Shown here one piece after another: positions 10,929 to 40,188 of a DNA stretch of 41,736 nt (position 1 is its first letter; each line of letters starts with the position of its first letter). The position numbers and the translations under genes were made by a program. This DNA is from Candidatus Acidulidesulfobacter diazotrophicus (GTDB lineage Bacteria > SZUA-79 > Acidulodesulfobacterales > Acidulodesulfobacteraceae): contig SGBB01000020.1 in NCBI GenBank assembly GCA_004195025.1, forward strand, positions 1 through 41,736. Reading direction: 5' to 3'. The notes beneath the pieces were generated by a model, which ran no database searches, was not told the origin of the DNA, and saw only the letters and a program-made list of their open reading frames with translations.

Positions 10929-11447
10929 ATGGCAAAAAGCTCGGAAGAGTCGCCTTCAAGGCGAACTTTTATGATGGTTGTCATTGGATTGATTTCAACT
11001 GTTATCGGTATCGCATTAGCGGTTCCTATTCTCGGAGCAGTTTTAAATCCATTGTTTAAAAAAAGAGATATTGTCTGGACAAAGTTAGGTAAAATCAGTG
11101 ATTTAAATTTAAAACCGTTAGTTCCAAAATTTGTACCCGTTTATTTTAGGGTTAAAGAAGGATGGTCTGTTAATACATTACCTCGTCAGGTAGTTGTCGT
11201 AAAACAGGTTAACGGAGATTTGTTATTCTTTTCTAATCAGTGCACGCATTTAGGATGTCCTTTACATTGGATACCTGCAAGACAAAAATTTTTATGTCCA
11301 TGTCATGGAGGTATGTTTAACATCACGGGACAGGTAGTCGGAGGACCGCCGCCAAGACCTCTTTATCAGTGGGTTCATAAAATGGAAGGAAATAATGTTT
11401 ACATTCAAAATAAGTTTAAAGACAATCCAAAAGACAGGGGGATCTGA
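10929..11447 (+). CDS. Rieske iron-sulfur protein of a cytochrome bc complex
   Basis: 172-residue Rieske protein, carrying the [2Fe-2S] centre that takes one electron from quinol and passes it to a c-type cytochrome. The N-terminus has a twin-arginine-like SRRTFMM followed by one hydrophobic anchor (about 15-37), typical of Tat-exported Rieske proteins. Cluster ligands are visible: Cys105 and His107 (CTHLGC) and Cys123 and His126 (CPCHGG). Cys110 and Cys125 would form the stabilising disulfide. Start ATG 10929 follows AGGGGGT. Its stop overlaps the cytochrome b start by one base (TGATG), so the two are translated together. The gap upstream (10751-10928) should hold the operon promoter, but I could not fix one. 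Confidence 0.95.
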   Translation: MAKSSEESPSRRTFMMVVIGLISTVIGIALAVPILGAVLNPLFKKRDIVWTKLGKISDLNLKPLVPKFVPVYFRVKEGWSVNTLPRQVVVVKQVNGDLLFFSNQCTHLGCPLHWIPARQKFLCPCHGGMFNITGQVVGGPPPRPLYQWVHKMEGNNVYIQNKFKDNPKDRGI

Positions 11448-12553
11448 TGTTTAAACAAATTCAAAACTGGTTTGACGAAAGAATCGGTCTAACCAAAGTG
11501 ATAGAAGAATTTAACGGTGAAAGGATACCGAGACGCGGAGGCTGGGCATATACATTAGGAAGCGTGCTTGCTTTCCTTTTTACCGTTCAAGTAGTAACAG
11601 GCATATTTCTATTATTTTATTATGTGCCCTATTTTCCGATAGCAAGAAATGCAACTTACTTTATAAAACATCACGTTATTTTTGGAAATATATTGTTAGG
11701 CATACATCTTTGGGGTGCCTTTACAATGATATTTATTATCCTTATTCATATGGCAAGGGTATATTTTTCGGGAGCTTATAAAAAACCTAGAGAAATGCAA
11801 TGGATTGCGGGTATGGTTTTATTTTCCGTAGTCGTAGTTTTAGGTTTAACAGGTTATATGCTGGTAGGAAACGAAAATTCATGGTGGACGATAAACGTTC
11901 TTACGAATGTTGCGTCGCATACTCCATTTATAGGCGGTTTCATAAGAGAAATTGCAAAAGGCGGAACCGAAACCAGTGTTTTGACAATGCAGCATATTTT
12001 TGCGGTTCACGTGTGGTTATTGCCTATAGTAGTAATAATGTTTATACCGATACATTTATTTTTAATAAGAAAAACAGGTCATCAGGGTATGGCTTTAGAA
12101 TATAAAAATAGCAAACTATGCGACGACGATGAAAAAAAATGGCAGCATCCCGACGGAACGGTGCCGTTTTTCCCCGATCAATTTTATAAAGATATGATTG
12201 TTGCAATAGGTGTTTTTGCCGTTGTATATATTTTAGCAGTGTATGTCGGCGCTCCTATCGGACCTATGTATAGACCGTTAGCTCTTAATTTTGCTCCTGA
12301 GGCAGACTGGTATTTCCTTGCAAATGAAGAATTGTTGAAATTTTTTCCGGGGCATGGGCTTATTATATTTTCAACATTTCTTATTCCTTCAATCGGTTTT
12401 GCAATATTATTTGCTCTTCCGTTTATTGACAGAACGAAGGAAAGAAGTCCGTTTAAGAGACCTGCGGCGACTGTTTTGGGAATATTGTTTCTCCTTTTGT
12501 TAGTTTATTTAACATTAATTGGCGGAGAACCTAAGGCGCCGGCGACAGTTTAA
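11447..12553 (+). CDS. cytochrome b of the bc complex (b6-like haem spacing, one-piece)
   Basis: 368-residue membrane quinol-oxidising subunit. Haem b ligands are His87/His101 in one helix and His188/His203 in another. The second pair has 14 intervening residues, the cytochrome b6 pattern, rather than the 13 of mitochondrial-type cytochrome b. The subunit-IV-like half is fused in the same chain (three further helices after about 250). The Qo-site motif is unusual: PEADWYF at 284-290 instead of PEWY. I see no cysteine at the position that binds the extra haem c in b6. TGATG overlap with the Rieske gene, and GGGGGATC as ribosome binding site. The next gene, 183 bases on, is the probable cytochrome c partner. 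Confidence 0.93.
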   Translation: MFKQIQNWFDERIGLTKVIEEFNGERIPRRGGWAYTLGSVLAFLFTVQVVTGIFLLFYYVPYFPIARNATYFIKHHVIFGNILLGIHLWGAFTMIFIILIHMARVYFSGAYKKPREMQWIAGMVLFSVVVVLGLTGYMLVGNENSWWTINVLTNVASHTPFIGGFIREIAKGGTETSVLTMQHIFAVHVWLLPIVVIMFIPIHLFLIRKTGHQGMALEYKNSKLCDDDEKKWQHPDGTVPFFPDQFYKDMIVAIGVFAVVYILAVYVGAPIGPMYRPLALNFAPEADWYFLANEELLKFFPGHGLIIFSTFLIPSIGFAILFALPFIDRTKERSPFKRPAATVLGILFLLLLVYLTLIGGEPKAPATV

Positions 12554-12605
12554 CTTAACATTTTTATAAATAATATATCCGGGTTAATTTGAAAACAGAT
12601 TAAAG

Positions 12606-12647
12606 ATTATTGATTTTAGCGGTAATATAAAAAATAAAATCAATAAT
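12606..12647 (+). other. 13-bp perfect stem-loop between cytochrome b and cytochrome c genes
   Basis: ATTATTGATTTTA (12606-12618) pairs perfectly with 12635-12647 around a 16-base loop. No U-run follows on either strand, so it is not a normal intrinsic terminator. Within an operon gap it could stabilise or set a processing point in the mRNA. Function is inferred. Confidence 0.4.
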
Positions 12648-12735
12648 ATAAAAATAAACCTGATTGATCTATTATAAATATTAATTATGAAGTCGCTAAT
12701 AACAATTATTATATACTTAAGAGGAGTAAATTAAG

Positions 12736-14559
12736 ATGAATTTAGGAACTATAGATATATTTAATCTTTTTATAAATCGATTAGCTTTAGGGTTTATGGC
12801 AATCGCATTTATATCTCATTACATAGGGATATTTAAAAAAGAGGATAGGTATTTTTGGTTGGCAAAACCTTTAATTCTTACTTCATTAATAATTGGAACA
12901 ATTCAGACGATTGTTTATTTTTATTTTTTAAGTCTGTTAAGAAACGGCATACCAAACTTCTGGATATTAATGAATAAACTTCAGCCGGGAGTTATCGGAT
13001 ATTCTATGGATTCGCTCTTAATATTTTTAATTTTAGGAGCAATATATTATGCTGGATTTGATGCCAGAGCTAATACTAGACATCAAGGTTGGAATGTTTT
13101 TATTGGAATGCTGGCGTTTGTATTTGGATTTTTGTCGGATATTTTTTATACGATAACGGAAAGCTATACGATAGGTCCTACACCTGAGACGGCAATTAGA
13201 ACTCCAATGTCGATTCTATTGGTTATTGAAAAAAATGTTCAGTTGTTTGTTCTTGCAGGCGCTATACTCGCAATTTATGCGGCGGTCAGATATATTTTAT
13301 CTTCTGAAAAGGACGATAAAGAATTTTACGATTGGATGGGTTCTTTCGCAAGTATTATAACCGTTATGTTTCTTCTTATGTATCCAATAGTATATTTTGC
13401 CTGGTTTAAACATTTCAGAGCTACCTCCAGCACTGGATTTAATAGAATAATGCTAGGAAAATATCAGTGGATAATGTATGACTTCTTTGAATCATTAGGT
13501 GTGGCATTGATTTTAAATTTTATTTATATGCTATGGAAATTAATAAACGGAAGAGATAAAAGCAAACCTACCGTATCTGTCGGTTTGATAGGGTTTTTAA
13601 TAATAGTTGCAATTGTATCTTTAATATTTGGTGCATTACCTCTTTCAATGGGTGTTTTAGGAAATATGCAGCCTGTAAAATATCTTGCTCTTGCAGGATT
13701 TTTTTTGACGGGATTTATGGTTTTAGGATATTATCTTAAAGATTTAACGCCCCATTTCAAATTTGGAAATATTTCAAAAATACCGCAATTTTTTCTTATA
13801 GCAGGCGGATTGCTAGTTGCTTTCAATGTTCCGCTTATGGGGTATATGAAAATAGCGGCAAGAGGTACAAATAGAATAATTTATCAAACGATGAATCTCA
13901 GCGGATCTAAATATATTCCGCCCATCGTGTACCCATGGCCTGTAAAAAAAGGATTTGGAATATTGCATGATAAATGCGTTATTTGTCATACGCTGAACAG
14001 AGTTGAAAGATATAACGGCAAGGCATACGGTCCGTTTAAACATCTTGTTCTTCATCAAATGAAAGTAGTCAACGGATGTCCTATTACGACAGCTGAGGGG
14101 AAAGAAGTCGTTAAATATTTAGACTCTTTAAATATTATCGCTTACAACCAGCATCTTGCAAAAATACATAAAAAATGGGCTCCGCCGTCATCATTGCCGT
14201 GGGGTAAACCTGCAGTATCAAGTTCAAAATCAAAAAAGGCAAAGGCTAAATCTAATACAAAAGTTGCCCAAAACAAATCTACCTCTAAAGCAGCTTCAGT
14301 GAATAATGCAAATTTAAAAACTGCAGCAATGAAAGTAATTGATGCTCAAGGATGTTTAGGGTGTCATACTATTAACGGAAAAGGAGGCGCCGTCGGACCT
14401 AATCTTTCGAAAGAAGGAACTAAAGGTCACAGCGTTCATTGGATTGAAGTCCAGATAAATACACCTAAAGTGCATACTCCTTCAACTATAATGCCGAATC
14501 ACAATTTAAATCCGTCGCAATTAAAAACAGTGGCAGATTATTTAGATTCATTGAAATAA
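12736..14559 (+). CDS. polytopic membrane protein fused to a di-haem cytochrome c region
   Basis: 607 residues. About ten hydrophobic helices occupy residues 10-385. After them come two haem-c motifs: CVICH at 414-418 and CLGCH at 540-544. A Lys/Ser/Ala-rich linker at about 490-525 separates them. The second haem domain looks like a complete small class I cytochrome c (GCLGCHTINGKGGAVGPNL, later Met in IMPNHNLNPSQLK as candidate sixth ligand). The first is minimal. It sits 183 bases after the cytochrome b gene with its own strong GAGGAG ribosome binding site, so it is the likely electron acceptor of the Rieske/cytochrome b pair. The membrane part I do not recognise with certainty: a cytochrome bd (CydA)-like fold is possible (a helix-1 motif RLALGFMAIAFISH vaguely resembles it), but key residues were not verified. 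Confidence 0.75.
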   Translation: MNLGTIDIFNLFINRLALGFMAIAFISHYIGIFKKEDRYFWLAKPLILTSLIIGTIQTIVYFYFLSLLRNGIPNFWILMNKLQPGVIGYSMDSLLIFLILGAIYYAGFDARANTRHQGWNVFIGMLAFVFGFLSDIFYTITESYTIGPTPETAIRTPMSILLVIEKNVQLFVLAGAILAIYAAVRYILSSEKDDKEFYDWMGSFASIITVMFLLMYPIVYFAWFKHFRATSSTGFNRIMLGKYQWIMYDFFESLGVALILNFIYMLWKLINGRDKSKPTVSVGLIGFLIIVAIVSLIFGALPLSMGVLGNMQPVKYLALAGFFLTGFMVLGYYLKDLTPHFKFGNISKIPQFFLIAGGLLVAFNVPLMGYMKIAARGTNRIIYQTMNLSGSKYIPPIVYPWPVKKGFGILHDKCVICHTLNRVERYNGKAYGPFKHLVLHQMKVVNGCPITTAEGKEVVKYLDSLNIIAYNQHLAKIHKKWAPPSSLPWGKPAVSSSKSKKAKAKSNTKVAQNKSTSKAASVNNANLKTAAMKVIDAQGCLGCHTINGKGGAVGPNLSKEGTKGHSVHWIEVQINTPKVHTPSTIMPNHNLNPSQLKTVADYLDSLK

Positions 14560-37893: not shown

Positions 37894-40188
37894 TCAAGCC
37901 GTAATTTTATTAATCTTTACAGAAGTTGAGAAGAAAGTCGCCCCTCCGCCGATATCCGATAAATCATCAGGCGTTAAAGCATTTACGCCGCTTTGGTTTT
38001 TATAATCTTCTTTCCACCATAAACCTGCGGAAACTACAACGCCGGGTAACACAGAATCTATAATTTTAGTTTTTATTAAAACGCAGCCTCTTTCATTTTC
38101 AATTTTAACAATATCCCCGTCGTTTATTTCTAATTCTTTAGCATCTGCAGGATTAATCTCTAAAAATGGTTCTTTGGCTTTAATTTTAAGAGAAGATATA
38201 TTTGCAAAAGTAGAATTTAAGAAAAAATGATTTGGAGGAGTTATGAGCGTAAAGGGAAAATCGGAACCTGTGCCGCCGTTTAATTTATTTTCTAAATCTT
38301 CAGTGTTTGCAATTTTTTCAGTATTTTTTTCAGTATTATTGGTACTATTATCATTATTTTTAATGTTGTTGTCTGATATGCGATTTTCATTTTTTCTAAC
38401 TTTTTCTTTATCATTTTTGTCTTTTACTTTAATCGGTTTATAGTCTGGTATATCAAATAAGCCTAATTCTGCAAGCTTTTTGCTTTTAAATTCAATTTTG
38501 CCGGAGGCGGTTGAAAAATTAAAGTCTGCAAACGGACGCTCAGGAATATTTAACATTATAAATCTTTCTTTTTTAAGCCGTTCAAGCGTTATGCCTTTAT
38601 CGCGCCAGTAAGGAAGGTCTAAAGCCTGACGGGCTATGTCTTCTTCGCAATCTGAAAAGCATGGTTCCGTATATCCTAAACCTTTTGCCAATAATTTAAA
38701 TACTTCTATATTTGGTTTAGCTTCGCCTATCGGAGAAATTACAGGGTCTGCCCATTGTATTAATGTATGCCAATAGCTTGCGTAAAGGTCGGCATGTTCA
38801 AAACTTGTAGTTGCAGGAAGAATGATGTCCGCCCATTTTGCCGTATCCGTCATTACCTGTTCATGGACTACCGTAAAAAGATCTTCTCTTGCTAAACCTT
38901 TTAAAACTAAATTTTGATTAGGAGCCACAATAGCAGGGTTGCTATTATATACATACAGCGAGCGGATCGGCGTCTGTGCCGGCAAGTTAAGTCCGCATAA
39001 TATTTTTCCAAGCTGCACCATATTGAGAATTCTGGTTTCTGAATATTTTTTATTTAAGCCGGGTCTTTCTATTGCTTCACTATTAAACGGAAAATATCCT
39101 GAATTTGATTTTAACGCTCCGCCGCCTTTATATTGCCATGCTCCCGTCAACGCAGGCAGCAAAGAAATAATCCATGTATTTATACCTCCGTTTTTGTGAT
39201 GCTGAAGACCATTGCCTATGCTAATAAAACTTGATTTTGTTTTTGCGTAAATATGAGCTAATTCTTCAATAGTTTCTGATGTTAAACCGGTAAGACGGGC
39301 AACTTTATCAGGAGGATATTTCATTACCTGTTCGTAAAATTCATTAAAACCGTATGAGTGTTTTTCTAAAAATACTTTATCCTCTAAATTATCCCTTAAT
39401 ATTACATAAGATAAACCTAAAGCTAAAGCGCCGTCGGAACCGGGTAAAATTAAATAAAAATCATCTGCCCATTTTGCCGTTTTATTGCGATGAACATCTA
39501 TCGCTATAATTTTAGCGCCGTTTTTACGCGCATTATCTGCTAAAATAGCTTGATGCATATTTGTTTCTAAAGCATTGATGCCCCAAAATATTATAAGCTT
39601 GGAATTGGCTGTTTCCGTCGGATTTATGCTTTTAGAGGCTCCGTAGGCTAATTGATAGCCCAAGCTTCCAGCAGCCGAACATATAGTTCTGTCAAGTCTT
39701 GTAGCGCCGATTTTATTAAAGAGCCGCCTATCCATGCTGCCTTTATTAATTATGCCCTCTGTTCCTCCGTAAGAATAAGGTAAAATGCATTCCGGACCGT
39801 ATTTTGTCGTTAAATCCCGCCACTTTTTTACTATTTCATCTATGGCAGCTTCCCAGCTAATGCGTTCAAAATTTTTATTTTCAACTTCTGATTCAATTTT
39901 AGTTGCATTTTTTTTTTCAATTCTGCGCATAGGATAAAGTATTCTTGACGGACTATAAATGCGTTCGGGATAAGCGCGGACTTTCTCGCAAATAATGCCT
40001 TTAGTGATTGGATTGGAAGGATCGCCCGATACTTTAACGATTTTCTCATAAATTATTTTTTTATTTTTTATCTCTGTTCCGGTCTCCATTTTAGCAGTAG
40101 GCGGCACTTTAATTGCTGATTTAGTTTCTGCTTTTAATGCGCATGTATCTGGACAATCGTGCGGACAAACCGAGTAATAAATTGCCAT
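37894..40188 (-). CDS. molybdopterin oxidoreductase catalytic subunit (DMSO reductase family), orphan
   Basis: 764 residues. Starts with an Fe4S4 motif: Cys8, Cys12 and Cys16 (CPHDCPDTC), then Cys67 (ITKGIICEK). The usual distance to the fourth Cys is near 27 residues; here it is 50, because of a Lys/Pro-rich insertion. Mo-bis-MGD-binding landmarks: GTEGIINKGSMDRRLFNKIG, RTICSAAGSLGYQLAYG, IIFWGINALETNMH. The C-terminal Moco dinucleotide domain is LEINPADAKELEINDGDIVK. A 50-residue Asn/Lys-rich insertion (about 583-633) separates them. No iron-sulfur electron-transfer or membrane subunit is adjacent. Short ribosome binding site AAAGGAT. Closest to cytoplasmic formate/thiosulfate/unknown-type members; substrate unresolved. 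Confidence 0.85.
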   Translation of the reverse strand: MAIYYSVCPHDCPDTCALKAETKSAIKVPPTAKMETGTEIKNKKIIYEKIVKVSGDPSNPITKGIICEKVRAYPERIYSPSRILYPMRRIEKKNATKIESEVENKNFERISWEAAIDEIVKKWRDLTTKYGPECILPYSYGGTEGIINKGSMDRRLFNKIGATRLDRTICSAAGSLGYQLAYGASKSINPTETANSKLIIFWGINALETNMHQAILADNARKNGAKIIAIDVHRNKTAKWADDFYLILPGSDGALALGLSYVILRDNLEDKVFLEKHSYGFNEFYEQVMKYPPDKVARLTGLTSETIEELAHIYAKTKSSFISIGNGLQHHKNGGINTWIISLLPALTGAWQYKGGGALKSNSGYFPFNSEAIERPGLNKKYSETRILNMVQLGKILCGLNLPAQTPIRSLYVYNSNPAIVAPNQNLVLKGLAREDLFTVVHEQVMTDTAKWADIILPATTSFEHADLYASYWHTLIQWADPVISPIGEAKPNIEVFKLLAKGLGYTEPCFSDCEEDIARQALDLPYWRDKGITLERLKKERFIMLNIPERPFADFNFSTASGKIEFKSKKLAELGLFDIPDYKPIKVKDKNDKEKVRKNENRISDNNIKNNDNSTNNTEKNTEKIANTEDLENKLNGGTGSDFPFTLITPPNHFFLNSTFANISSLKIKAKEPFLEINPADAKELEINDGDIVKIENERGCVLIKTKIIDSVLPGVVVSAGLWWKEDYKNQSGVNALTPDDLSDIGGGATFFSTSVKINKITA

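Follow-up and report, generated by a model that had tools for sequence, protein, structure and literature searches.

Cytochromes c1 and f, which accept electrons from the Rieske cluster, have a single membrane anchor. The Rieske/cytochrome b complexes with octahaem cytochrome c described from Kuenenia, Nitrospina and Methylomirabilis combine a b6-type cytochrome b and a Rieske protein with a non-standard c subunit that is a hexa- or octahaem protein (PMC12954380; PMC3578206). The bd-like oxidases of Nitrospina have about 14 helices, keep the haem b ligands and lack quinol-binding residues (PMC3578206). In solved structures, haem b558 is ligated by a His/Met pair and haem d by a histidine (PMC8951039). 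The locus described here is assigned to a member of the order Candidatus Acidulodesulfobacterales (PMC6776010) and shares the b6-type cytochrome b, the Rieske protein and a non-standard c subunit with the octahaem complexes, whereas its cytochrome c is mono- or di-haem and sits on a domain that appears to derive from CydA.

The window, i.e., the whole stretch of 41,736 nucleotides that was analysed, comes from a genome of 2.46 Mb that is 98% complete. The ORF list and Pfam matches give the gene order UvrA-like ORF (a name given from its own sequence), Rieske protein, cytochrome b, a 607-aa protein and ATP synthase subunits, and the ORF coordinates (Table 1) confirm the Rieske/cytochrome b/607-aa set that an earlier note, made from the letters of the DNA, had described. 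The Rieske gene shares its last base with the cytochrome b gene, the 607-aa gene follows cytochrome b after 182 bases (down to about 20 bases in relatives), and this operon sits directly upstream of the ATP synthase genes. Among the window ORFs, the 607-aa gene is the only one of c type in the interval from cytochrome b to the ATP synthase genes, and the operon holds no CydA-like partner with haem ligands. Elsewhere in the window, a P-type cation ATPase (PF00690/PF00122; 17355-19760, minus strand) is encoded beside the ATP synthase genes of this presumed acidophile, and a 764-aa molybdopterin oxidoreductase (PF00384) at 37894-40188 (minus strand).

Table 1 Features of the Rieske/cytochrome b operon, with positions in the window.
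Feature	Position	Strand	Evidence
Rieske [2Fe-2S] protein, 172 aa	10929..11447	+	PF00355 E 2.7e-12; CTHLGC and CPCHGG motifs
Cytochrome b, full-length, 368 aa	11447..12553	+	PF13631 1.3e-38, PF00033 3.4e-36, PF00032 5.3e-07
Haem b ligands His87, His101, His188, His203	11705..12055; codon starts 11705, 11747, 12008, 12053	+	Motif inspection and alignment
Qo motif ADWY, residues 286-289, replacing PEWY	12302..12313	+	Aligned without gaps to 13 outside cytochromes b
607-aa fusion of CydA-like membrane domain and cytochrome c domains	12736..14559	+	ORF, motifs, family alignment, hhalign
Membrane domain, residues 1-373, about ten helices	12736..13854	+	hhalign, controls, reverse profile, ligand losses
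Lost-histidine positions N10, N120, E165, P302, I381	12763..13878; codon starts 12763, 13093, 13228, 13639, 13876	+	Merged alignment, counts
Haem c site 1, CVICH, residues 414-418	13975..13989; candidate sixth ligand Met442 at 14059-14061	+	Family alignments
Haem c site 2, CLGCH, residues 540-544	14353..14367; candidate sixth ligand Met586 at 14491-14493	+	PF00034 9.3e-09 over 534-607

The Rieske protein has both cluster motifs of a bc complex, and these are present in every family operon with upstream sequence. The cytochrome b chain unites the b6 and subunit IV parts and gives the only PF00033 match genome-wide. The haem ligand pairs first read from its sequence, His87/101 and His188/203, are present. 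The 14-residue gap of the second pair, which had been described as b6-type, recurs in 13 of 13 aligned closest cytochromes b from outside the lineage, and by this comparison the b6-like haem spacing is of the ordinary, common type. The Qo motif does differ from PEWY, as had been claimed, but not through an insertion: 'PEADWYF' aligns gap-free to 'PRPEWYF' with two substitutions, and the 'PE' two residues upstream of ADWY is, judged from the same alignment, a coincidence. Outside relatives have P-E-W-Y, P-D-W-Y or P-A-W-Y at this site, and all members of the Acidulodesulfobacterales family with sequence have A/G/S-DWY. The variant found here retains the acidic residue of a bc-complex Qo motif, as Asp; quinone type and cofactor potential reportedly track the second position of the motif (PMC9162462). 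The cytochrome b of one relative (G007:C1:89885-90974) lies in two frames split near residue 185, reflecting either an assembly error or a real frameshift.

Hydrophobic segments in residues 5-373 of the 607-aa protein, followed by CVICH at 414 and CLGCH at 540, agree with the earlier count of about ten membrane helices ahead of two haem c motifs. In Pfam, NCBIfam and PDB sequence searches, cytochrome c matches alone were of note and the membrane domain was unmatched. No Pfam or NCBIfam family for cytochrome c1 or f was among the matches, which upholds the claim that the partner is not a standard c1 or f: its presumed place in the chain, as acceptor of the Rieske cluster, is the same, but it has no sequence match to either and about ten helices.

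A profile built from 12 relatives gave weak but repeated matches to proteins of 570-760 residues in other lineages, of which nine of the ten scanned scored above the cut-off of PF01654 (CydA) and the tenth slightly below. These outside proteins resemble the bd-like oxidases known from Nitrospina (PMC3578206). When the family profile was compared with that of these bd-like proteins, hhalign gave 98.9% (E 1.8e-17, residues 15-396), and singly 17/17 bd-like proteins scored 77-97%. None of 13 control membrane proteins (all polytopic, among them CydA and CydB of the same genome) scored above 2.7%, and reversed-sequence controls gave no match in the profile comparison. A profile of outside proteins only found the 607-aa gene at E 4.8e-9 genome-wide, the sole other match being canonical CydA. 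A comparison with CydA had been proposed in the earlier note; set singly against canonical CydA, the protein scored 0.3%, which is no detectable similarity, so the link to CydA runs via the bd-like group. These profile comparisons place the membrane domain within the CydA superfamily, as a diverged homologue of its CydA-like "bd-like oxidases" (Nitrospina, Nitrospira; OR-N/OR-C types), with homology to the bd-like members only and with YDWMG-, LGxM- and MGY-type motifs common to both. The family branch is extremely long in a small tree made here (8.7 changes per column). AlphaFold2 models made with 21-22 close relatives had mean pLDDT values of 45 and 50, too low to serve as evidence, and Foldseek found no significant match for them (cytochrome bd-II at rank 4, E 1.1, with the first model, likewise not evidence). 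Scans of viral contigs returned nothing.

Five histidines that are invariant in 14/14 CydA-like relatives are all replaced in the 607-aa family, and the replacing residues are identical in the 12 of 12 family sequences counted. The first and third positions (N10, E165) align with the canonical CydA histidines that are numbered His19 and His186 in E. coli, and the histidine ligands of the CydA superfamily are missing there. The conserved glutamate that aligns with a helix-4 glutamate of canonical CydA is also gone, and in the merged alignment about four helices are lost between Met311 and the C-terminus, the last helix being replaced by the cytochrome c domain. With 24 of the 97 invariant positions of bd-like relatives retained overall, i.e., about a quarter, the loss of five out of five histidines fits a loss of haem but is not in itself statistically extreme. 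Met311, a candidate haem-ligand methionine, is kept and invariant, and a cofactor could still rely on it and on His226, an invariant residue that is new in this family. The site of His226 (window 13411-13413) is occupied in the bd-like relatives by a glutamate that is almost invariant. His28 was rejected as a haem ligand, being Gln in several relatives. The bd-like oxidases keep their haem b ligands (PMC3578206) and have c haems in separate genes at the loci seen, whereas in the 607-aa protein histidines are lost, helices deleted and a cytochrome c fused. CydB is a haem-less relative of CydA and superposes on it (PMC8951039), but the 607-aa protein has no detectable sequence similarity to CydB (2.7%).

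At the first haem c site, all 21 sequences aligned have Cys414, Cys417, His418 and Met442, which makes Met442 the likely sixth ligand; Met586 is the likely sixth ligand at the second. The two motifs justify calling this 607-aa protein a di-haem cytochrome c, but this is not the family state, as most relatives have one haem c, at 414. The second haem c domain occurs in two genera, in most members of one and in some of the other, and is absent elsewhere; it has only modest similarity to several c domains and is out of frame in one MAG. An origin of the haem domains from c subunits of CydA-like operons was rejected, domain 1 matching c-type proteins elsewhere instead. The extra length of one relative (L020/L092) was an artefact from a run of N.

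A gene of the 607-aa type occurs in 26 of the 30 genomes of the SZUA-79/Acidulodesulfobacterales family, and the four genomes without it are incomplete (59-86%). Near the closest outside cytochromes b, no CydA-like neighbour was found in about 14 readable regions (20 fetched), which held instead 5- to 9-haem proteins or a cytochrome b with a fused haem c, or had no c-type protein within the stretch covered. Two unrelated genomes encode a full CydA-like protein downstream of a Rieske protein, cytochrome b6, subunit IV and an octahaem cytochrome, and therefore both systems meet elsewhere too. These two clusters (G067:C58 and G344:C19) include a Rieske protein, a b6-type cytochrome b, a 288-aa subunit IV, eight-haem and one-haem proteins, a CydA-like bd-like oxidase and further c-type proteins, and each combines a bc complex with a putative oxidase.

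We infer, with good confidence, that the 607-aa protein is the equivalent of cytochrome c1/f in a three-subunit Rieske/cytochrome b complex, carried by a CydA-like scaffold without oxidase haems. The helices had earlier been described as 'oxidase-like or scaffold', and they are indeed oxidase-like by descent. An active oxidase is unsupported because the five conserved histidines are lost and the operon lacks a CydA-like partner with haem ligands, and the scaffold, the better half of that guess, is therefore preferred. In this complex, quinol, probably menaquinol, would be oxidised at the Qo site, with one electron passing to haems bL and bH and the other to the Rieske cluster and from there to the haem c at Cys414/His418. 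The latter electron would continue to the second haem c and then to a periplasmic carrier or peroxidase. The CydA-like membrane domain would serve as scaffold and anchor, with class I cytochrome c domains on its periplasmic side, a single one in most of the family and two in this protein.

The genome encodes a separate cydA-cydB pair and a single clear protein of the cytochrome c peroxidase type; COX1 gives only a fragmentary match, and a complete haem-copper oxidase was looked for without success. Candidate acceptors for the c haems are therefore a peroxidase or a periplasmic carrier, unless electrons flow in reverse from iron oxidation, and the earlier idea of a new way of pairing a bc complex with its acceptor stays conjectural. 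The COX1-like match (G000:C26:20095-20394) covers about 100 residues in a 141-aa frame with one in-frame stop, and represents either a gene remnant or a haem protein of small size, not a full oxidase.

It is possible, though on balance doubtful, that the complex runs in reverse, with Fe(II)- or sulfur-derived electrons entering at haem c and being driven uphill to quinone for NADH formation. Iron oxidation via Cyt572/Cyt579-like proteins has been proposed for Acidulodesulfobacterales (PMC6776010), as has reverse flow through the bc complexes of other high-potential lithotrophs (PMC3578206), but direction is not readable from sequence. Reverse flow can go together with the scaffold and differs from forward flow in physiology, so the likelihoods given to the rival readings are not exclusive.

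CydAB draws its electrons from quinol and needs no cytochrome c donor, and no genetic link of the operon to cydAB was seen; both points speak against a supercomplex adaptor, in which the subunit would dock the bc complex onto canonical CydAB or another membrane complex via the old CydA dimer interface. We regard such an adaptor as improbable, although CydAB is encoded by the same genome and CydA-family proteins do pair with paralogues, as in CydA-CydB (PMC8951039). A one-operon quinol-to-oxygen bc-oxidase, whose membrane domain would bind haem via unusual ligands (e.g., the invariant His226, Met311 and Glu165) and reduce O2, is very improbable: descent from the bd-like group, the joining of Rieske/cytochrome b to a CydA-like protein in operons of two unrelated genomes, the kept Met311 and invariant His226, and the failure to find a complete haem-copper oxidase in the genome would favour it, but the five conserved histidines and the helix-4-equivalent glutamate are gone, the operon has no partner subunit and the genome has its own cydAB. 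From the ligand loss, the 607-aa protein is expected to lack oxygen reductase activity.

Returning to the scaffold, it seems reasonably likely that a bc complex recruited a CydA-like oxidase subunit, and that this subunit shed its oxidase haems and turned into a lineage-wide structural carrier of the c1-like cytochrome, which would be a new class of third subunit. Variation in the third subunit is familiar among bc complexes, but chiefly in how many haems c it carries; in this case the anchor appears to stem from another respiratory enzyme superfamily. This anchor seems to have lost its catalytic cofactors and would thus be a traceable case of an oxidase turned structural part. In the annotation of Acidulodesulfobacterales genomes, a bd-like sequence of the 607-aa type is probably not an oxygen reductase. 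The acid-loving sulfur bacteria of this one phylum would have a respiratory bc complex with its cytochrome c on a bd-derived membrane protein, to all appearances an enzyme that became a scaffold.
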